A DNA stretch of 55,359 nucleotides from positions 1-55,359 of the IMG/VR virus record IMGVR_UViG_3300048580_000268. One strand, 5' to 3'. The notes beneath the pieces were generated by a model. It made no database searches. It was given only the letters and a program-made list of their open reading frames with translations, and was not told the DNA's origin. Origin of the DNA: a virus. The position numbers and the translations under genes were made by a program. Positions 35,464 to 50,364 of this stretch are shown here, piece after piece (within the stretch, counting starts at the first letter, position 1; every line of letters begins with the position of its first letter).

Positions 35464-36354
35464 TTACGGATTCCGAGTGAACGACCAAGAGTCGTCGCTG
35501 TCCGGGTGGAGCAGGTAGGCCGTGCTCGAAGGCTCGGCCCTAATGATCCAAGTGGCTCCAGCAGTAGGAATCGTAACGGTACCGGTAACAGTTGCGTTGG
35601 TATCGGCGCGGAAGTAACGAACGCCAGTAACAACCGGGATAACGATGGCGCCAGTGGCCGCGGTAAACGTCGGGTTCTGTGCCATGACAGGAGTCTGAGG
35701 AGTCCCTGAGAAGATAGCAATCACTGCTTCGGGCAGAGGCAGGCTAGGGTCCTGCCCAGGAGTGCCCCAGAGGAGGTTCTCAAGCTCAAGAAGGTCTGCT
35801 GCCTGGACGGCTGTAGAGTCGATCGTGATGACCGAAGAGGGCCGCATACCCGGAACTGCCACGGGGATCGTAGTAAGCTCCCAGCTAAAGGTAATCGCTT
35901 CAGGCGAATCATTGATCGTAGTGTAAGCTTTCTCCGACGGGCTGGCGGAGCAGCCGTAAATCAAATGGAGCTTGTAGCCGTAATCGTCACCCTCAACGTC
36001 GTTACCGAGCTTCGTCCGGTAAGAAAGCCCAAAAGATTTACGCGCCTGCTGGCCGATAGCAACGCCGGGAGTGTCGACGTTGAGGCCATCAAAAGGAGCG
36101 AATTCATCGGGATACGTGAACGCTTCAATAGTTGCCCCAAACTCTTCTGCTGAGAAGAGATTCAGGTACTTAACGTTATCCGCGTACTGAGCATTTGCCT
36201 CAGCGCCAGTAGGAGCCTCTGAAACAGACACAAGTCCATTCCAAGCGACGCCATTATTGTAAACTCCGAACTGATTCGGAATGTAAAGGACACCACGGTC
36301 GACGCCGGTTTCATACTTCCGATCGCCAACTCCGTCCCATTCAAGAACTGCCAT
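35464..36354 (-). CDS. Major tail tube protein
   Basis: A 296-residue protein: tube domain (residues about 1-215; LEWDGVGDRKYETGVDRGVL, GLSYRTKLGND, GYKLHLIYGC, TFSWELTTIP, ENLLWGTPG) plus a C-terminal Ig-like domain (about 220-296) ending DDSWSFTRNP, similar to the capsid protein's end DDSWTFTRD. Codon use is GC-rich, like the capsid, as expected for a protein made in large amounts in a GC-rich host. AAGGAG precedes the ATG. Confidence 0.9.
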   Translation of the reverse strand: MAVLEWDGVGDRKYETGVDRGVLYIPNQFGVYNNGVAWNGLVSVSEAPTGAEANAQYADNVKYLNLFSAEEFGATIEAFTYPDEFAPFDGLNVDTPGVAIGQQARKSFGLSYRTKLGNDVEGDDYGYKLHLIYGCSASPSEKAYTTINDSPEAITFSWELTTIPVAVPGMRPSSVITIDSTAVQAADLLELENLLWGTPGQDPSLPLPEAVIAIFSGTPQTPVMAQNPTFTAATGAIVIPVVTGVRYFRADTNATVTGTVTIPTAGATWIIRAEPSSTAYLLHPDSDDSWSFTRNP

Positions 36355-37000: not shown

Positions 37001-39031
37001 TCAGTCGCGAGTGAACGTCCAGCTATCGTCTTCGCTCGTGGAGAAGTAGTAACCGGCCGCCGGGGTGGCGTCGATGGTGATCGAGGCACCCGAGGCGATT
37101 GCCGCGTACGGCGAACCTGCTGCGTTGACAACGGTAGCGCCGTTCTTGTAGACGACACCAGTCTGGTTGACAATGGTCAGAACGCCGGTCGTAGTATTGA
37201 AGGAAGGCTCGTTAGGAATAACCAGAATATCGGTTCCAGCAACCTTACGGACGACCATCGCGGCCTTCAGCTTGGTCAGCGCTCCAGAGAGGCGGGTCTC
37301 AATCAAGTACTTCTGACGGTTGTAGTCGATGTCGAAGTCGTCAAACATGCTGACCTCTCCACCTCGCGTGGAGCCAACCGTGTAATCGGTCGGGTTCACA
37401 AGGACGGCAACCAGCTCGGGCTCGTCTTCCATGACCTCAACCGAAACAACCTCAGTGACGCGCAGCTCAGCCGCAAGCTCCTCAAGGTTCTTGTAAATGC
37501 GACGACCAAGAGTGTCCTTCAGAAGAAGGAATTTAGCAATGTAGGTCTCGGTGGTGTACATGGTCGGGAGACCAGTGCCGCGAAGGTGACGACGATTCAT
37601 CACAATAGCGTCGACAATCTCCTGAACAGAGGAGTTGTTATCGTCGATGTTGACGTTGACCTGAGTAGTGTAAAGCTCGTGATCCGAAGCAATCGGGCGA
37701 ATACACTGGTCGTTGATCTTCTCTTCCGACGCGGGGTCGCGGCCATCGCCGATCAGAATTGCTCGCGCAATTTCTTCATCGAGCATCAGACGCATCTCAC
37801 CCTTGAGCCAGGCGACAACATCGAAGTCAGTGATGTCGATCATGTCGTCACGATCAAGCTGCTGCTTCTTGTAAATGGTGGTCGGGCTGGTGACTCGCCG
37901 AGCAACCGAGAAGAACTCGGTTTTCTTCAAATTGCCTTTGATGTAACCCTTGGCCCGAGCCTCTTCCTCGGTAATGTCAGCCATGAGGGTCTTGATCCGG
38001 CTGAACGGGCGCTTGCGAACACCCATCATCACCTTGTCAACCCAATCGGTCCGACGACCAAACCACTCGGGCGTGTCGGTTGCCGCCACTGCATCCGGGA
38101 ACAGGAGATCGATGTTGGTGATGCCGTGCTGGAGAGCGTAGCTTTCGACCGCGGTCCTCAGCGAGCCGCGAGCCGTGGCGTCAGCAACAATAGCTTCCAT
38201 ATCTGCGTGAGAGAGGATAAGCTCCTCTTTCGTGTCTTTCTTGTCTTCAAAAACATTCGTACGACTCATTTGATCGTCGCCTTTCTGATCTATGTTATCC
38301 TGGGCAAGGGTTTTGTCGGTATTAGTATTGTCTTCGGCTTCGGCAGTACTAAGCGCTTCGCCAATCATATAATGAAGAACATCTTTTTGCTTATCAGTCA
38401 TAGACTCATAAACATCAGCGATGGTTTCTTCTGAGTCGTCTGCCATCTTTTCTGCGTGAGAAATATTGTCTATAACTTCATCAGAATCTTCGGTAGACTC
38501 TTCAACATCATCTTCGTCATCATCTTCGTCATCATCTTCGTCACCATCTGACTCATTATCTTCAGTAGACGGAACGTCTACCTCTAGTCCAGTGTAAATA
38601 ATAGCTTCTTCGTCTAAGACCTCATCTTCAAAATCTGAGTGACGAATTGTAACGTTCTCAATGACAGCTCCTGGATTAGCTCCGCTGAGAACTAAACTGA
38701 CCTCACGAATTGCGCCATGAAGAACTCGACCCGAGCGCTCAATGAGCTCATTCGCCCAGATTGAAAGGCGGTTTATGTCTCCATGCTCTAAAAGTTCTCG
38801 CGTGTGAATAGCTTTTGGTGAGGAATTAAAGAATCCATATGCATAAACCCCGTCAGACCTTGCCTCTAAAAGGGCGTGACCAAGAACGTTTTCGGGATCG
38901 CTATGACCGTGCTGCCAAACCAAAGGAACCTTAACTTGATCCTGGTGTTTGAAGGCGTCCGGCATGATTGTTCTGCCATCAGAACATTTAAGCCCTGATT
39001 TAGTGGCATAACCGCTAAAATCTGCTTCCAT
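37001..39031 (-). CDS. Prohead protease fused to major capsid protein
   Basis: A 676-residue protein. Residues 1-120 are an HK97-type prohead protease: VWQHGHSDP (His 41 or 43) and EVSLVLSGANPGA (Ser 112 or 116). Residues 155-185 are a nearly pure Asp/Glu linker. Residues about 255-600 are the capsid protein (ending VAGTDILVIP), and 602-676 an Ig-like decoration domain ending DDSWTFTRD. An in-frame ATG at residue 255 (MSRTNVFED, 38269) has a possible SD (AAAGG) upstream and marks a switch from AT- to GC-rich codons, so separate capsid synthesis is possible. Protease in cis could mature the shell. Confidence 0.88.
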   Translation of the reverse strand: MEADFSGYATKSGLKCSDGRTIMPDAFKHQDQVKVPLVWQHGHSDPENVLGHALLEARSDGVYAYGFFNSSPKAIHTRELLEHGDINRLSIWANELIERSGRVLHGAIREVSLVLSGANPGAVIENVTIRHSDFEDEVLDEEAIIYTGLEVDVPSTEDNESDGDEDDDEDDDEDDVEESTEDSDEVIDNISHAEKMADDSEETIADVYESMTDKQKDVLHYMIGEALSTAEAEDNTNTDKTLAQDNIDQKGDDQMSRTNVFEDKKDTKEELILSHADMEAIVADATARGSLRTAVESYALQHGITNIDLLFPDAVAATDTPEWFGRRTDWVDKVMMGVRKRPFSRIKTLMADITEEEARAKGYIKGNLKKTEFFSVARRVTSPTTIYKKQQLDRDDMIDITDFDVVAWLKGEMRLMLDEEIARAILIGDGRDPASEEKINDQCIRPIASDHELYTTQVNVNIDDNNSSVQEIVDAIVMNRRHLRGTGLPTMYTTETYIAKFLLLKDTLGRRIYKNLEELAAELRVTEVVSVEVMEDEPELVAVLVNPTDYTVGSTRGGEVSMFDDFDIDYNRQKYLIETRLSGALTKLKAAMVVRKVAGTDILVIPNEPSFNTTTGVLTIVNQTGVVYKNGATVVNAAGSPYAAIASGASITIDATPAAGYYFSTSEDDSWTFTRD
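38506..38541. repeat. Three 12-bp tandem units in capsid linker
   Basis: Three perfect copies of CATCATCTTCGT. On the coding strand they give the repeating Asp-Glu-Asp-Asp of the acidic linker between protease and capsid. Copy number could change by slippage. Confidence 0.9.
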
Positions 39032-39134
39032 TTTGATTTCCTTTCAAATCAACTTGCCGTCTAGAGAAATTTTGGTTTTTGGCTTCATGTTTTGACCAAA
39101 GGCTCTTTCTAAGAGTTTCATAATCGTTTTTAAA

Positions 39135-40361
39135 TTACTCAACGGAGTCTGCCTCATTTAGATTATTGCTAGATTTCTCTAAAGGCATGTTGCTGTTATT
39201 AAGCTTATCAGCCTTCTCATCAGGAAACGGCTCAATTCCCATAAACCCACGGATTTCATTTGAGGTGAGAATTTCGTTTCTTGTAAACTTGTCGGCAATC
39301 TCAGCAATTTCGCTAACTGGAACAAGCTTGAACGGGTCTTTAAAGTAATAGACCCGCTCTCCTTTAGCTGTACCCATTGGGCCTAAGAATGAGCGTTGCA
39401 TGGCTTCTGTAATAGCCTGAAGGATTGGGTCTATAGACCGGTTATAATAGTTCAGCATAGTCTTTTCATCGGCAGTGCCATTCATTATGTCTTCAGTAAT
39501 ACCCAATTGACCATACAACATCTTAGTCAAATACTCAATTTGCTGTAAAAGATTATTCTCAGCAGGCCTATTTAGCTGAGTAATCTTTTCAGTTGAATCC
39601 GTGTAAGCAATTCCATACTGACTGTCTTTTAACTGCAGTTCAATAGATTCACGTCGAGCTTCTGCTTGCTTTTGTCTTGCCTCGGATTTAATAACATAAG
39701 GAAGTTGTATAATAAGGTCAAGTTTTCCAGAACCAGATTGTTCATCAACCGCATCTAAAAGAGTAAGTTTTCTAATAAGCCTTTGAAGCGTCCCGTTTTG
39801 CTGATTCATTACTGCATATAAAGGATTTTCGACAATAGCCACATAACGCTTTTCTAGGGTTATGTCTTCTCGAAGTCCGGTTGCTTCGTTGTAGAGATTG
39901 ACCTTTACGTGTTTTGGATACCAATCAATAATTTCGCCTACTCGAAGAGTATGAATATCAAATTGCTCATTTGTTGTTGGATCTTGCGTAGTATCGACTG
40001 GCACAATGGCTGCCGCGCCTTTATCAAACAACGTCATGGCAATATCTTGCCGAAATGCTCGTGGACCCTGATCTAGGTTAGGCTCTAAAGTCAGAGCTTT
40101 ACTCAAGCCGCTTTCTTTATCTTCTAAATAACGTTCTTCTTTATCTAGCTGAACGTGTTTGAACCCAACACCAGAAACATCTATACTCATTCTTGTATAA
40201 ATGGAAGTGACGATAGATCGTTCGTTGTAATAGCCTCGGAACCTACTTTGATCTGAGCGAGAAGAATATGACATCCCTCTTGGGGCGCCTACTGTTGACC
40301 ATACACGATCAGTATCTCGAAAAGCATTCCAAGCACTTCTAAGTTTTTCTAGCACTGCCAC
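39135..40361 (-). CDS. Portal protein
   Basis: A 408-residue HK97-type portal: VLEKLRSAWNAFRDTDRVWS, YNERSIVTSIYTRMSIDVS, then the helical core LTKMLYGQLGITEDIMNGTA and NYYNRSIDPILQAITEAMQR, GIEPFPDEKADKL near the end. It forms the 12-fold ring through which DNA enters. Start is GTG with a near-ideal Shine-Dalgarno (AGGAGGTGAT) 5 nt upstream. It sits between the head-decoration gene and the protease-capsid gene. Confidence 0.92.
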   Translation of the reverse strand: MAVLEKLRSAWNAFRDTDRVWSTVGAPRGMSYSSRSDQSRFRGYYNERSIVTSIYTRMSIDVSGVGFKHVQLDKEERYLEDKESGLSKALTLEPNLDQGPRAFRQDIAMTLFDKGAAAIVPVDTTQDPTTNEQFDIHTLRVGEIIDWYPKHVKVNLYNEATGLREDITLEKRYVAIVENPLYAVMNQQNGTLQRLIRKLTLLDAVDEQSGSGKLDLIIQLPYVIKSEARQKQAEARRESIELQLKDSQYGIAYTDSTEKITQLNRPAENNLLQQIEYLTKMLYGQLGITEDIMNGTADEKTMLNYYNRSIDPILQAITEAMQRSFLGPMGTAKGERVYYFKDPFKLVPVSEIAEIADKFTRNEILTSNEIRGFMGIEPFPDEKADKLNNSNMPLEKSSNNLNEADSVE

Positions 40362-40825: not shown

Positions 40826-41323
40826 TTATAGTCTAATATCGTCAAATAAAACTGGGCCTTGTTTAAGAGAAGCTTTAACAAACTTTTTCCCTTTAATAGC
40901 TGCAGTTTGTCCATCTTTGGTTACGTAAATGGTTTTTCTTGGTTTGGCCAGAGCATATTGAAAAGCGGCGTCTAGTTTTTTTTGATCTATTGTTGCTTGT
41001 TTTTTTCGACCACGACGAGTATTTAAGTTTCCGCTTTTTCCTTCAAGTTTACGAAGTGTTTTTTTTGCTGATCTGGCTCGTTGTCGCTTTGAGGCCCCCG
41101 CAGAAGCGTAATCTAAAGCTGCGTTTCTTACTGAATTCTTTTTCGGCTTTGACAGCATAGGAGTTCTGTTAGAAATATTAGTTTGTCTTTGAACTGGGTT
41201 TGCAAATCTTGGGTTTGCTGCTTTAGCATTTGCTATTGCGCTCCTATTTTGATTTTTGCGAACCCCCCACTTCATTCCTTTGACACCAAAGTGTTCAAGA
41301 AAGTCTTCTACTTCTTTATCCAT
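40826..41323 (-). CDS. Head-associated protein with HFGVKGMKWG motif, 165 aa
   Basis: A 165-residue very basic protein. It opens MDKEVEDFLEHFGVKGMKWG, the conserved motif of a group of phage head-associated proteins, then a Lys/Arg/Ala-rich helical body (ASKRQRARSAKKTLRKLEGK) and a short strand end (VLFDDIRL). Two further copies of the motif occur at 41371-41667 and 43433-44335. Highly basic: it may bind DNA in the head. Function unproven. Confidence 0.75.
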   Translation of the reverse strand: MDKEVEDFLEHFGVKGMKWGVRKNQNRSAIANAKAANPRFANPVQRQTNISNRTPMLSKPKKNSVRNAALDYASAGASKRQRARSAKKTLRKLEGKSGNLNTRRGRKKQATIDQKKLDAAFQYALAKPRKTIYVTKDGQTAAIKGKKFVKASLKQGPVLFDDIRL

Positions 41324-41370: not shown

Positions 41371-41667
41371 TTAACTACTTAAAAGATACTCAGCAAATTT
41401 TTTTCCGGCGACTATTGCGGTAACCATAACCGCGTCTTCTAGTTTAATCTTTCGGTCCGATAGTCCCCATAGGTTTTTTTCTGAACCGGCAAGCTCGTTT
41501 TTGTATCTTTCACGAAAACTTTTATTAACGGCCGTTTGTTTGTTATTTGCCTTCGAATTTGTTCGAACGTTTTTATTAGAAACTGCAGCGCCTCGGTTTT
41601 GGCGAACTCCCCACTTCATTCCTTTGACACCAAAGTGTTCAAGGAAGTTTTCTGCATCTTCACTCAT
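41371..41667 (-). CDS. Head-associated protein with HFGVKGMKWG motif, 98 aa
   Basis: A 98-residue protein opening MSEDAENFLEHFGVKGMKWG, then a basic linker (RQNRGAAVSNKNVRTNSKAN) and a C-terminal helix (EDAVMVTAIVAGKKFAEYLL). Its ATG overlaps the terminase stop codon, so it is translated with it. Small sister of the 165-residue and 300-residue motif proteins. Role unknown; probably head-associated. Confidence 0.75.
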   Translation of the reverse strand: MSEDAENFLEHFGVKGMKWGVRQNRGAAVSNKNVRTNSKANNKQTAVNKSFRERYKNELAGSEKNLWGLSDRKIKLEDAVMVTAIVAGKKFAEYLLSS

Positions 41668-43432: not shown

Positions 43433-44335
43433 TTACTTCTTAGGTTTTATTGACTTAGATAGTTTTTCTATTCTTTGTCGGTCTTTGTTTACTTTTATAA
43501 TATCTTCTCTTGAAATTTCTGATTTTGCTTTTTTGGCCTCTTTTTTAGCGTCTTTAACGGCTTTTTTAGTCTCATTAACCACATTTTTGGCAGATTCTTT
43601 ACCACTATTACCGACAGGTATATTGAGCATCTTTTGAACTTCATTTTTGATTACTGCTTTTGTTGCTTCTTTAGCAACTTCTTTTGTTGCCTGAACAAAA
43701 ATATCTTTTGAGGCCCTAGTAAACGCTTCGCCTTTTGTGAGTGGCACCGTTTCTCGGACAAGCTGCGAATACTGCTTTTCTAACTGCATTCTTGCAATCG
43801 CCGACTTGAGCTCATCATCAGTCATTTTTTTAGCTGAGGGTTTTGAGCTCGACGATTTAGTTTTTTCTTTAGCTTCCCGTTCTTTGTCTTTACGGGCTTT
43901 CCAATTTGAGGCCGACCTAGATTTATCTGGAGCTTTTCGAACGCCCCACTTCATTCCTTTGACGCCGAAGTGTTCAATAATATCTTCGGTAACGCCAGCC
44001 GCAAAAACTTCTCCTTGAGCCATAGAACGATTAAGCTCTTCTTGTCTTTTTTTAGCTTTAGCTGCAATGGCACGACCATCAGCTTCTTTTTTTGGAACCG
44101 GCTCTCCCCAAGCGGCAGCCGTTAAAGCAAACCGGGTCGGTTCACCTTTTTCGTCGACAAGTGGTGGATAGTCTTTCTGTCCATAAAATCGAAGTGCCCA
44201 GCTAATCCACCTTTTTTTATCGGCGGTACTAGCCTTAGTGTAATCTTTAACGCCCGGTTTTAAGTTTCCACCAAATTCTTTTCTTCCGGCTGCAGTTAAA
44301 CCACCTTTTGGGTCTTTAAGCGGTGGATTACTCAT
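43433..44335 (-). CDS. DUF6321-like protein with HFGVKGMKWG motif, 300 aa
   Basis: A 300-residue basic protein. Residues 1-90 are a DUF6321-type domain (PKGGLTAAGRKEFGGNLKPG; RWISWALRFYGQKDYPPL; RFALTAAAWGEPVPKKEADG). Then IIEHFGVKGMKWGVRK and a Lys-rich coiled-coil body. Seen in phages between connector and terminase. The motif is internal here but N-terminal in the two smaller sisters, so it behaves as a movable docking tag. Function unknown. Confidence 0.8.
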   Translation of the reverse strand: MSNPPLKDPKGGLTAAGRKEFGGNLKPGVKDYTKASTADKKRWISWALRFYGQKDYPPLVDEKGEPTRFALTAAAWGEPVPKKEADGRAIAAKAKKRQEELNRSMAQGEVFAAGVTEDIIEHFGVKGMKWGVRKAPDKSRSASNWKARKDKEREAKEKTKSSSSKPSAKKMTDDELKSAIARMQLEKQYSQLVRETVPLTKGEAFTRASKDIFVQATKEVAKEATKAVIKNEVQKMLNIPVGNSGKESAKNVVNETKKAVKDAKKEAKKAKSEISREDIIKVNKDRQRIEKLSKSIKPKK

Positions 44336-45299: not shown

Positions 45300-47954
45300 T
45301 CACCAGTAGAGGAGGCAGCGGAAGCACTCGGCGAACGACGCCCTGTTGAGCCACAGGTACTTGAGGCCGTCTTTGGTGGTGACGATCTCCATGCGGTTGC
45401 CGATGATCGCTGTCGGTGCGACGTAGGGGTACATCGACCCGCCGTTGACGTTCGCTGTCACCACGTTGAGCGACATGACTCTCTGTGTGGCGTCCTTGTG
45501 GAAGTAGATCCGGTCCACGCCGTCGTAGGCCGTCATCGTGCCGGTCGTCAGTGTCTCGGTCGTGGGCGAAGTCGCGATCGGTGACATGCGGTCGGTGGTC
45601 AGGTCGAGCCGGTCGAAGCCCGCCAAGCCGCCGCCTCTGGTGGCGAACATGTACCGGCCACGAATGTTGACGTTCGTGGTGCCGAACGCCCAGTTGGCGT
45701 TGCAGCCCACAGCCTTCGCCACGCCCTCAAGGATCTGGAACCCGGTGACGTTGGTGGTCGGATTAGCGATCGTTGCGACAGTGAGCGTGTCGGCAGTGTT
45801 GCTGGAGATGGAGACTTCGATGGGTGTGGTGCCGGTCGTGAAGATACGGACACGTTTACCTGAGTAGATATTGACCGGCCAGTTTGCACCCGTCTGTGCG
45901 AGTGTGGTGGTGCTACCGCCAGAGGTAACACCAGCGTGAAGCACCCCCGGTCCACCAGCGGTGCAGATGCTGTAGCGGCTGACACCGTTGGTGGGGGCCG
46001 TGCCGAGACCAGAACCGACGATGGTTAGGGTGGTGGCGGTGTTAGCGGTAATGCGCCCGATCAGCGTCGTTGCGCCACCCGTCGTTCCGCCCGTCGCAGC
46101 AGTCTGAACGTACAGGAAGCGTCCTGCGTGCTCGTCGGTCTGCCACGCCTTCGTGGCGTCAACCAACGTTGTGACCGACTGGGCGGTACCGATTGCGGGC
46201 GAGCCAGAGCCAGCGAGGGAGTAGGTGAACGTCGTAGCCGAGGGCACCGTCGCGATGTTGAAGGTGCCGTTCAGCGCCGTGGTGGTCGTAATGCCAGCAA
46301 CGGTCACCGAGTTACCGACACGGAACTGGTGCGGATGAGAGGTAGTGACCGTTGCTACGTTTGTCGCCCATGTAGCCGAAGCGATCGACACCGGCTGATG
46401 CCCCGCCACGGTAGCGGAGGAACTGCGGGCGATACCCCAATCGACCTGCCGACCCAACGTGGTGACGGTCGACTCCAGATTCATGATCGGCAGGGCGGCG
46501 TTGCCGCCGTTCCACATGAACATCTTGTCGGGGTCACCCTGAATGACATACACGCTGTCGGTGCTTGGAGTAACATCCCATCTCCCGTAGATGCTCAGTA
46601 CTGTCGCCGTGTTGGAAGCGATCGTGCGAACCTGACCGGCACCCGTTCCGTGGAGGATACGAACGGCGTAGTTCTTCCAGCGGTTCTCCGCCCACGTCTT
46701 AGCCGCGTCGGTGAGCGACCCAAGCGTTAGTGGACCTGTCGACGGCTGAGCAGCGGCGGTTGCCGTCCCGGCGTCGAAACCGAGGATCATGTAACGGCTC
46801 GTAGCGTCCGGGTGGGTGGTCCACACCGGGTCGACCGTCAGGTCGGTGGCGGTGTTGGAGGCGATCTTGCGGATCTGGCCGACACCCGTGCCCGAGAAGA
46901 TGTACACCCAGTAGTTCTGCCACTGGTTGACTTGCCACGCCGGGTTGTCCACGCCGCGTGTGGCGTCGACCAGTGTGTGGTTCGTGCCGCCGGTCGCCCT
47001 GCCCCGCTCCCAGATCGAAGCGTTCTCCGACATGCGCTCAAGGCTCATGTCGGTCGCTGCGGCCAGCAGAACGTTCGTGCTGGCGGGCATGATGTACCAC
47101 GTGTCGGTGAGGATGTCGTACATTTGATGCACGAAGAACGGCGCAGCAGCCGTCGAGGTGACCATCGAGATCATGCCCGACTGGATGCGAAACACCGAAG
47201 CGTCGGTGGGCTGCACTCCCCACGCCGAGTCGACGGTGAGCACCTGTGACTCGATCGTGAACGACGCCTGCAAACCGTTGGTGATGACCGGAACGGGGGC
47301 GAAAATGCCGGGGTTGTTGTAGGGCTTGTTCTGCTGGGTCGTGTCACCGAAGGTCAGCACCGTCGCGGTGTTGGAAAGGATGCGGCGGTACTGGCCGACG
47401 CCGGTGCCCGACACGATGCGGGCGGTGTACCCGGCGTACTGGTTGACGCCCCACGCCCGCGCCGTGTCAGTGAACGACAGCGAACCTTGCGTGTTCGTGA
47501 CGGTCGTGACGACGCCAGTGTCATGCACGGTCGGCTCAGCCACACCCGTGATCGTGCGACGCTGACCGGCACCGGGACCGCTGACGATCACCACGTCGTA
47601 GCCGAGCATCGCTTGAGCGGACACTGCCGGGACCGTGAGCGTGTTCGCTCCTGCGGTAATCACATTGCCTTCCGGCCCCATACCACCCATCAGCTTCATC
47701 GATGAGTAGGTCGTCAAGGCAACCGGAGGCGAGGTCAACTGCTGGTACACGTCGGTGAAGGTGTCATAACGCCAGAAGTTCGTCGAGTTGAGCAGGTAGT
47801 AGATGTACCTGCCGTGCTCGGTGCTGAGGAAGTTGGGGTTGTCTGCCGAACAGGTGGACGAGATCGCCGACGACACTGCGGGGGCGAAGCGGGTCCACTC
47901 CCATGTCGGGAGGTCGACCTGTCGGGTAAGGGTGTTGGAGGTCAGGGTGGGCAT
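45300..47954 (-). CDS. GC-rich repeat-containing virion protein, 884 aa
   Basis: An 884-residue protein built from at least six related modules of about 65-70 residues. Consensus: W-x3-Y-x2-Y-x-V-x-I then G-T-G-x-G-Q-x-R-x-I-x-S-N-T-A-T-x-L-T, for example RIVSGTGVGQYRRILSNTAT and RILHGTGAGQVRTIASNTAT. Such beta-rich repeat proteins occur as virion or tail appendage proteins. The gene is much more GC-rich than its neighbours. TGAGGA precedes the ATG. Exact location in the virion is not known. Confidence 0.78.
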   Translation of the reverse strand: MPTLTSNTLTRQVDLPTWEWTRFAPAVSSAISSTCSADNPNFLSTEHGRYIYYLLNSTNFWRYDTFTDVYQQLTSPPVALTTYSSMKLMGGMGPEGNVITAGANTLTVPAVSAQAMLGYDVVIVSGPGAGQRRTITGVAEPTVHDTGVVTTVTNTQGSLSFTDTARAWGVNQYAGYTARIVSGTGVGQYRRILSNTATVLTFGDTTQQNKPYNNPGIFAPVPVITNGLQASFTIESQVLTVDSAWGVQPTDASVFRIQSGMISMVTSTAAAPFFVHQMYDILTDTWYIMPASTNVLLAAATDMSLERMSENASIWERGRATGGTNHTLVDATRGVDNPAWQVNQWQNYWVYIFSGTGVGQIRKIASNTATDLTVDPVWTTHPDATSRYMILGFDAGTATAAAQPSTGPLTLGSLTDAAKTWAENRWKNYAVRILHGTGAGQVRTIASNTATVLSIYGRWDVTPSTDSVYVIQGDPDKMFMWNGGNAALPIMNLESTVTTLGRQVDWGIARSSSATVAGHQPVSIASATWATNVATVTTSHPHQFRVGNSVTVAGITTTTALNGTFNIATVPSATTFTYSLAGSGSPAIGTAQSVTTLVDATKAWQTDEHAGRFLYVQTAATGGTTGGATTLIGRITANTATTLTIVGSGLGTAPTNGVSRYSICTAGGPGVLHAGVTSGGSTTTLAQTGANWPVNIYSGKRVRIFTTGTTPIEVSISSNTADTLTVATIANPTTNVTGFQILEGVAKAVGCNANWAFGTTNVNIRGRYMFATRGGGLAGFDRLDLTTDRMSPIATSPTTETLTTGTMTAYDGVDRIYFHKDATQRVMSLNVVTANVNGGSMYPYVAPTAIIGNRMEIVTTKDGLKYLWLNRASFAECFRCLLYW

Positions 47955-48405: not shown

Positions 48406-50364
48406 TTAGAAAACGATAGGAATATACTGTGAATTGCGAGAATCACTGAAGTCAAGTGTTGGAATATAAACTGGTGGTGGAGGCTCTTCATCTCCAGTTA
48501 GACTAATATATAGTGTTACTATACTGTCTGTATTCAAAGATTTGAACCAGGGATTCGCCTCCTGCGCTGAGCTTCCATCACTATAATTTAGGTTTAGTAA
48601 TGTTTCTGATTTTTTTGGGTAAGCTAGAGCATTAAACCAGGATAATTGTTGTTGAATGTCATAAACACTATTTGCCAAATCGTGCGTGTTTGGCGTGACG
48701 AACTCAGAGTAGTTAACGCCTTTTGCAGTTAAAGCTGTTTTAAGCGCTGCTTCATGTTCCCAGTGAACTAAGTAATCTGCTGTTCCACGTTCATAAGCAA
48801 CTGGACACAGATTTGATAAAGAATTAAGATTTATATGATCGGCAATACTTTGTGTAGGGAACGTTGGTGAAGTTAAAGTACCGTTGGCATGTAGACCTTG
48901 AAACCAGCGATAAGCAAGACGGTTTATAACTGAACCAGCATCTGGGTGTGACGGGTCCCAAGACCTAGCTAAATCAAGATCAACTGGAGCGCAAAACACA
49001 TAAGCTCCAATAAAGTCTGGATCTTCTCCATTATAGCCGCTTCCCCAAGGTAGCTCGGCTAGAGTAGCCCCAAGTATTGTCATCTTGTTTCCAGCAGAGT
49101 CTGTCTCTAGGTTTTTTGTCATTGCCGCGGCTAAAGCTATATACCCGCCAGCAGAATAACCAGTGGCAAACATTTTATCTGGGTTAATTTTTAGACTCTC
49201 CGCGTTATCTCTCATATATGCTGCGGCTAATTTATAGTCTATAATAAAACTTGGGTATCTACCCCCGACATTGCCTGTTCCATAAGCTGTGTAAGGAGCA
49301 ACCACGCTATTTGAGTCTGTTTTCACATATTGAATAGATGCAATAGCATACCCAGCGTTAAGCATGTCTGTTTTCCAATTTTCTGGAAGAACACTTTTAT
49401 CTTTTTCAGAGAAGAATCCTGGGTGAGCCCAACAGACAACCGGCCATCCTCCAACCGGAGGGGTTGGCCCAGGTAGGTAAAGATCAAATTTTCTATTGTA
49501 GTTTAATGGACTAGACGCGTAAGATATGTTGAGAGTTTCTTGTGGGGTTCCAAATGGACTAGAGACGGTAGAACTAGTAGAAAAAGTTGCAGGATTTACG
49601 TTATAAGAACCTTTTGGTGATTCATCCCATGACGGCGCCCCAACAGCGGTTGTCGATGCTGGTGTTACCCCGTTTTGTGGATTAGAACGGAACTTACCGC
49701 CTAAATTATAGTCATTATGAATTTCCATTTGGGCAAAGTGAAATTGAACAGGCCAATAGCCAGCATTGAGATAACCAAACAGCATGTTATCCCAAGAAAC
49801 AGAAGAAACCGTTTCAGATACCCCGTTAATCGGAGTAAGATTGTCTTCTAAATATACTCTCCAAACAAGGTTATTTGTTCTGTTTGGGTCAGCTTGAATT
49901 TCAATTCTATAAGCCGATGTTGCATTTGGTAAAGAGACGCTACTTCCCGAAGCCGTTCTAATTATTCTATCCGGGCTGGCCGCTCTGGCATAACCTATGT
50001 TTGTTGTAGAGCCAGTTCTAAATGCCAAAAATGTAACCGCTGACGCTGGTGTTTGTGTCTTTATGTAGAATCGAGCAGACCATGGTCCGGTTACTGCGCT
50101 TGGAGTCGGAATGGGTTTGTCGCTTGGAAAGACTCTCCAGTAAAAGAGATCGCCACCGACGGCAGAGTCTAGCGCGTGAAGCGATTTTAAAACTCGACCA
50201 TTTGACATTGTAAAGGACGATGTTTCCAACCGAGGAACTGACGCTAAAGTACCTAAAGTAGAACCAGTAACTCCGGTACCAACATCATCAAACCCATTTG
50301 CCGTTGGGCCTGCGATTTGATTGTTGACTAATCCGTTTCCTTGCCACCTAAATATGCAAGCCAT
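48406..50364 (-). CDS. Tail-associated alpha/beta hydrolase (esterase), 652 aa
   Basis: A 652-residue protein. The N-terminal part (about 1-225) is beta-rich and lectin-like (SARFYIKTQT, YRIEIQADP, VWRVYLEDN). Residues about 290-585 form an alpha/beta hydrolase: oxyanion HPG (314-316), nucleophile GYSAGG (402-407, Ser 404), Asp 530 (GTADYLVH) and His 561 (TPNTHDL). The end is a linker (DEEPPPPVYIP) plus short tail. Placed among fibre genes it probably removes acyl groups from the host surface polymer. The triad is seen; the substrate is not known. Confidence 0.82.
   Translation of the reverse strand: MACIFRWQGNGLVNNQIAGPTANGFDDVGTGVTGSTLGTLASVPRLETSSFTMSNGRVLKSLHALDSAVGGDLFYWRVFPSDKPIPTPSAVTGPWSARFYIKTQTPASAVTFLAFRTGSTTNIGYARAASPDRIIRTASGSSVSLPNATSAYRIEIQADPNRTNNLVWRVYLEDNLTPINGVSETVSSVSWDNMLFGYLNAGYWPVQFHFAQMEIHNDYNLGGKFRSNPQNGVTPASTTAVGAPSWDESPKGSYNVNPATFSTSSTVSSPFGTPQETLNISYASSPLNYNRKFDLYLPGPTPPVGGWPVVCWAHPGFFSEKDKSVLPENWKTDMLNAGYAIASIQYVKTDSNSVVAPYTAYGTGNVGGRYPSFIIDYKLAAAYMRDNAESLKINPDKMFATGYSAGGYIALAAAMTKNLETDSAGNKMTILGATLAELPWGSGYNGEDPDFIGAYVFCAPVDLDLARSWDPSHPDAGSVINRLAYRWFQGLHANGTLTSPTFPTQSIADHINLNSLSNLCPVAYERGTADYLVHWEHEAALKTALTAKGVNYSEFVTPNTHDLANSVYDIQQQLSWFNALAYPKKSETLLNLNYSDGSSAQEANPWFKSLNTDSIVTLYISLTGDEEPPPPVYIPTLDFSDSRNSQYIPIVF

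Follow-up and report, generated by a model that had tools for sequence, protein, structure and literature searches.

The open reading frame at 37001-39031 (minus strand) of the IMG/VR virus record IMGVR_UViG_3300048580_000268 very probably comprises two nested genes in a single frame, which would encode a 75-kDa protease-linker-capsid fusion and a 47-kDa capsid precursor starting at the internal ATG at 38269. The window analysed is the whole stretch of 55,359 nucleotides, positions 1 to 55,359 of that record. Judged from the comparison of gene sequences, the internal start, Met255 of the fused frame, is very likely a genuine initiation site under selection. Internal initiation had been put forward in the first-pass annotation. 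It receives strong comparative support from the start codon, conserved in 193 of 193 fused relatives, from the nucleotides of the ribosome-binding site, from a step in codon bias, from unrelated fusions and from relatives with split genes.

Organisation of the fused gene

The features of the fused gene and of the adjoining major tail gene are as follows.

39039-39045, minus strand: Shine-Dalgarno sequence GAAAGGA of the full-length start (from the sequence; dG -9.6)
37001-39031, minus strand: whole fused frame, protease, acidic linker and capsid, 676 aa, 75.2 kDa (PHROG 3270)
38639-39031, minus strand: prohead protease domain, residues 1-131 (Pfam PF04586; herpesvirus protease fold; invariant columns)
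38270-38638, minus strand: acidic linker, mostly disordered, residues 132-254 (41% D+E, net charge -45)
38444-38446, minus strand: Met196, where some relatives have a second internal start (without Shine-Dalgarno sequence, dG +0.1)
38330-38422, minus strand: two-helix module TIADVYESMTDKQKDVLHYMIGEAL, residues 204-234 (conserved, sometimes duplicated in relatives)
38280-38286, minus strand: internal Shine-Dalgarno sequence AGAAAGG, 10 nt before the ATG at 38269 (from the sequence; dG -8.9; kept in relatives)
37001-38269, minus strand: putative nested capsid frame from Met255, 422 aa, 47.0 kDa (comparative evidence)
38126-38209, minus strand: candidate delta-like (scaffold) segment opening the capsid product, helices 275-302 (AlphaFold)
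37241-38119, minus strand: HK97-fold major capsid core, residues 305-597 (Pfam PF05065; Foldseek and VIA-align)
37004-37240, minus strand: C-terminal beta domain, residues 598-676 (homologous to the end of the adjoining major tail protein)
35464-36354, minus strand: major tail protein (PHROG 2645; GC3 0.57)

The fused frame is uninterrupted over 676 codons, and the separate protease and capsid genes of an HK97-type head module are absent. In the whole record there is one match to the S78 protease family and one to the HK97-type capsid family, both in this frame. It is located between the portal gene (39135-40361) and the head-tail and major tail genes. The profile of PHROG 3270 ('head maturation protease') covers residues 2-631 with an E-value of 6e-231. 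Residues 1-140 alone clear the curated cut-off of Pfam Peptidase_S78 (PF04586; 26.9 versus 21 bits). NCBIfam TIGR01543 scores 31.7 on the protease half, under its own cut-off of 59. The protease half modelled alone has a mean pLDDT of 89, and its structural matches are herpesvirus assemblins with Z-scores of 7-9 (best 9.1). His41, Ser112 and His131 are invariant in the relatives. These residues fit the His-Ser-His triad of the assemblin fold and are predicted to be catalytic.

Pfam Phage_capsid (PF05065) is matched over its cut-off at residues 395-594. The capsid half aligns to the HK97 capsid (1ohg) with a Z-score of 15.9 over 262 residues and to RcGTA with 16.8, the range being about 15-17. 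When the complete protein is modelled with AlphaFold (mean pLDDT 77.7), a beta-rich part (residues 1-130) is followed by disorder (134-200), two helices (204-234), renewed disorder (234-267), helices at 275-302 and the capsid fold with its C-terminal beta domain. A sequence search against solved structures yielded chance matches only. The initial description of one frame joining prohead protease, acidic linker and major capsid is upheld.

The capsid's C-terminal beta domain is homologous, at 35% identity, to the C-terminus of the major tail protein (35470-35709, minus strand). The same domain sharing between capsid and major tail protein occurs in the relatives L022, L030, L031, L047 and L049.

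The internal start and its conservation

An AAAGG upstream of the ATG at 38269 had been recorded earlier, and the site is indeed present in the extended form AGAAAGG at the 10-nt spacing given above. AGAAAGG is a perfect 7-base match to the 3'-end tail of Gram-positive 16S rRNA, in the sequence that was assumed here for this tail. With this tail, the Met255 site has the best dG among the 16 in-frame ATGs of the frame. The RNA structure around the internal start is not unusual (z -0.3).

Among the fused relatives, an ATG, GTG or TTG was found at the aligned internal position without exception (191 genes by script; L119 and L162 by eye). To the 79 IMG/VR loci of the set, 12 annotated phage genes were added, and two further scans contributed another 101 loci. 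The non-redundant relatives (n=130) carry 117 ATG, 11 GTG and 2 TTG codons. Across the 79 IMG/VR loci, both the length and the sequence of the linker are hypervariable, and the start codon with its upstream site always precedes a conserved NVF(E/D). The Lactococcus phages 1706, P1046 and P078 have a TTG as internal start, after AAAGGAG or AAGGAG. A dG of -5 or lower was calculated for 90% of the capsid starts versus 20% of the other internal ATGs. Relative L018 has only a weak internal site.

Split forms within the family of the window gene were not detected among 102 further loci, of which 101 are fused and one (L116) is truncated. Streptococcus Javan phages have separate genes and are too distant for an alignment at the start. 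The full-length start has the stronger ribosome-binding site in 49 of 63 relatives, so that the strength of the sites does not account for few fusion and many free capsid molecules, the outcome envisaged in the first-pass annotation. A large excess of the latter would require another cause, for instance re-initiation or differences in mRNA accessibility.

Codon usage along the fused frame

The GC3 of the window gene is 0.39 in the protease, 0.32 in the linker and 0.67 in the capsid part. A change point is best placed at codon 283 (log-likelihood ratio 36.9, permutation maximum 8.0). The first-pass annotation had reported a switch to GC-rich codons that coincides with Met255. The switch itself is confirmed; the coincidence is not, as the step in the window gene is located 29 codons beyond Met255 and residues 255-283 still have a GC3 of 0.41. 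In the mean of the 130 non-redundant relatives, the step corrected for amino acid composition peaks at offset 0 from the internal start. Its size is 0.105 there, and 10 or more codons upstream it does not exceed 0.047. The GC3 of the capsid half exceeds that of the protease half in 126 of 129 relatives. Among the structural genes nearby, that of the major tail protein also has a raised GC3; those of portal (0.33) and terminase (0.37) resemble the protease half. The step and the major-tail-like codons of the capsid half suggest, as the simplest reading of the codon bias, a higher level of translation for the capsid half than for the protease half.

Alternatively, the step may only mark the place where protease and capsid genes of different origin were joined by recombination, in which case it would be uninformative on expression. 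The mosaic nature of phage genomes and the position of the step off Met255 in the window gene are in favour of such a joint, yet GC-rich and AT-rich relatives alike have the step at this position, although all relatives found are fused. The other nearby structural gene of high GC3 is that of the major tail protein, which also speaks against a joint. An origin of the step by recombination is considered unlikely.

Unrelated fusions and split relatives

Head protease-capsid fusions are also present in c2 (L5), PAJU2 (ORF3) and Pseudomonas phage MD8 (gp5), with capsids outside the family of the window gene. The ATG at the capsid start, where the N-terminal segment of the capsid begins, has the strongest in-frame site in seven unrelated fusions, ranking first among 13 in-frame ATGs in c2, 11 in PAJU2, 12 in Q54, 8 in Nocturne116, 6 in RRH1, 4 in Yasuo and 5 in Inspire2, the latter two from clusters EE and AN. 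The site is moderate in Q54 (-7.2) and Nocturne116 (-6.2). The domain boundary guided the choice of the ATG, hence this result is supportive and not a blind test. As in the window, the internal site at the capsid start is strong in c2 and PAJU2. The fusion of MD8 differs in its ClpP-type protease and in the lack of a strong site at the capsid boundary, and the nested-start rule is accordingly not claimed for MD8. In this protease-scaffold-capsid gene (L251, 4371-6452) codons 185 and 220 have the strongest internal sites, close to where the scaffold part begins and not at the capsid.

Five PAJU2-like loci in bacterial genomes are fused, and all five have kept the site. In two further PAJU2 relatives, L213 and L214, protease and capsid are separate genes in different frames, and the capsid gene, with a site of its own, starts at the homologue of PAJU2 Met197. 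According to the c2 record, the mature capsid starts at codon 206 of the fusion; the internal ATG, codon 131, is located upstream of it. An internally started precursor that has lost a 75-residue segment fits this position, as does a cleavage of the full fusion.

Nucleotide selection at the internal site

The glutamate codon of the xEGxxM block is GAA in 89 of 89 non-redundant cases. Nine conserved glutamate columns elsewhere in the same genes have mixed GAA and GAG, the major codon accounting for only 51-85%. In other E-G pairs of the fusion frames, GAA occurs 56 times and GAG 97 times (37% GAA). Where lysine replaces the glutamate, the codon is AAA (9/9), versus 32/300 (11%) in other K-G pairs. 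The hexamers GGAAGG or GAAAGG are present in 62 of 77 sequences; synonymous shuffles gave 18.3 +/- 3.4 with a maximum of 28. The ribosome-binding core occurs in all three codon phases, as AAA-GGA-G (KGD), GAA-GGA-G (EGE), GGA-GGA-G (GGE) and GAG-GAG-GA (EED).

Synonymous-shuffle tests of the site strength had mixed results. With the short anti-Shine-Dalgarno tail ACCUCCUUU the null was stronger than the observed value (-7.98 versus -7.06), and with the tail ACCUCCUUUCU no difference from the null was found. The observed pairing exceeded the null only for the CCUUUCU end (-7.14 versus -6.20, 0/300 shuffles), a tail picked after the result with the short tail was known. The internal site is not maximised for core anti-Shine-Dalgarno pairing. 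In view of the mixed outcome and the later choice of CCUUUCU, the argument relies on codon choice, codon phase and conservation of the start codon.

These observations bear on the possibility of a mere polyprotein, in which all capsid would arise from the 75-kDa fusion by self-cleavage and the internal methionine and the bases upstream of it would be incidental or a cleavage mark. The protease domain appears intact, the capsid of c2 is recorded from codon 206, and a maturation of the fused PAJU2 capsid by autocleavage of the fusion has been proposed (cited in PMC8306868). Self-cleavage leaves unexplained the invariant GAA codon, the binding core in differing codon phases, GTG and TTG as start codons, the step in codon bias at the start and the strongest in-frame site at this place in unrelated fusions. 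It would also bring about one protease per capsid subunit into the prohead. Production of the capsid by cleavage only is regarded as quite improbable.

The upstream block may otherwise be a protein motif, e.g. for recognition by the protease, of the form (K/Q)EGxxM[TS]xNVFE, with the likeness to a Shine-Dalgarno sequence as a by-product. NVF(E/D), often together with EG, is conserved on the amino acid level inside a variable linker. Against this stand the residues preceding the methionine, which vary (KGD, EGE, GGE, EED, EKE, EEG) as the bases remain AGGAG, GGAGG or GGAAGG, and the fixed synonymous positions. A protein motif as the sole cause has a very low probability. A separate transcript for the free capsid, from an internal promoter or a processed mRNA instead of a second start on the same mRNA, is the solution of herpesvirus UL26/UL26.5, where the nested product UL26.5 is made from its own transcript, yet for the window gene it is equally remote, since it would still need a start and a ribosome-binding site, and a consensus scan of the minus strand of the linker for sigma-70-like promoters gave no match.

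Linker, two-helix module and additional starts

The linker has a mean of 32% D+E across the family, a mean net charge of -29 and a length of 78-180 aa. A function of the acidic linker as scaffold, suggested at first, was rejected as its main role: the linker is disordered, hypervariable and would be missing from every internally started capsid subunit, and is thus a poor candidate for a scaffold of the shell. A built-in scaffold, if there is any, may more plausibly be sought in the modelled helices 275-302 following Met255.

An additional in-frame start with a strong site is located within the linker of 49 of 126 relatives, often just before the two-helix module. In total 53 such sites were observed, versus 36.7 +/- 4.8 in the synonymous null (maximum 49). 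The extra start precedes the module by at most 30 codons in 17 of the 31 AT-rich and in 19 of the 82 GC-rich relatives. These sequences suggest a third nested product from the linker start in some lineages. Met196 was considered as a second start in the phage of the window and rejected; it has no Shine-Dalgarno sequence and is probably unused there.

A strong second in-frame start ahead of the module was observed in L101, L105, L108, L112, L141, L199 and others. The two-helix module of the window gene (38330-38422, minus strand) weakly matches models of the YlxM/PRK00118 DNA-binding proteins (E 0.0018, under the family cut-off).

Relation to known systems and proposed mechanism

The fused protein is matched by 254 phage records, 244 of which cover at least 80% of its length. 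The fusion was published for the Arthrobacter clusters AM and AU as 'an unusual feature', and unrelated fusions were mentioned for cluster AN and phage RRH1 (Klyczek et al., 2017, PMC5513430). The published fusion shares with the window the gene, the domain order and a full-length homology at no more than 54% identity. It differs in that it is treated as one protein in the records and in the literature as far as covered. In the literature as far as searched, there is no mention of the internal capsid start, of its conservation or of the step in codon bias.

HK97 resembles the window in the S78 protease (gp4) beside an HK97-fold capsid (gp5) with its own N-terminal helical segment. These are two separate genes in HK97, whereas the window has one frame with the capsid start retained. 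The counterpart of the HK97 delta domain in the window would be the two helices 275-302, which follow Met255 in the AlphaFold model. Herpesvirus UL26/UL26.5 has the protease fold of the window at the N-terminus (Z 9.1 to pseudorabies pUL26N), and its C-terminal part is also produced alone, as proposed for the window gene. The inner product UL26.5 is a scaffold; that of the window is a capsid with a bacterial ribosome-binding site. In phage lambda, Nu3 is made from an internal in-frame start within the C gene, and the fold of the C protease differs from that of the S78-type protease. Lambda C, like the window gene, is a protease gene whose 3' part is a candidate for a separate in-frame product. 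The inner product of lambda is a scaffold and the capsid is encoded by a separate gene, in contrast to the whole HK97-fold major capsid of the window. The nested C/Nu3 gene was described by Shaw and Murialdo (1980; cited in PMC8508860).

The proposed mechanism involves two initiation events on the fused frame. Ribosomes starting at 39031 would yield the 75-kDa fusion. Other ribosomes would start at the ATG at 38269 by means of AGAAAGG and yield the 47-kDa capsid precursor, residues 255-676. The shell would consist mostly of internally started capsid, into which the 75-kDa fusion may co-assemble through its own capsid domain, placing the protease inside the prohead. Subsequently, the protease may release itself and trim the N-terminus of the capsid, with helices 275-302 as the delta-like segment. 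A wider rule is advanced tentatively, being rather less probable than not: S78-type fusions of tailed phages, with several independent origins, would be nested genes that have kept the ribosome-binding site of the capsid, with the fusion as the minor product by which the protease enters the prohead. As part of the same tentative rule, some lineages of the family of the window gene would make three nested products, namely protease-module-capsid, module-capsid and capsid.

Other genes of the window

A frame of 884 aa at 45300-47954 (minus strand) has a GC content of 63% and a GC3 of 0.81 in a phage of about 43% GC. No Pfam match and no significant NCBIfam match were found for it. A recent import is one possible explanation, a repeat-type protein of strong bias another. 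The DUF7211 motif EHFGVKGMKWGVRK is present in three frames on the minus strand around terminase and portal (40826-41323, 41371-41667 and 43433-44335), at the N-terminus in two of them and in the middle of the third. A protein of 652 aa encoded at 48406-50364 (minus strand) contains an alpha/beta-hydrolase (BD-FAE) domain, which is uncommon for a phage.

Implications for phages with fused capsid genes

The fusion itself has been described before. As far as the literature searched shows, the conservation of the nested start appears to be new, and so does its recurrence in unrelated fusions. About 250 sequenced phages carry the gene, and the records examined give one product only, a protease or a fusion. 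Should the capsid have a start of its own, the annotation of the major capsid protein in those phages is wrong and the true N-terminus of this protein becomes known; hundreds of phage capsid proteins annotated as 'fusion proteins' only are probably mis-annotated. Structural and proteomic work on those phages could then be designed correctly. The nested arrangement would also offer a simple delivery of the protease into the prohead in sub-stoichiometric amounts, via a minority of the shell subunits. It links the protease-capsid fusions of phages, lambda C/Nu3 and herpesvirus UL26/UL26.5 as one strategy, in which a protease and an assembly protein are nested.
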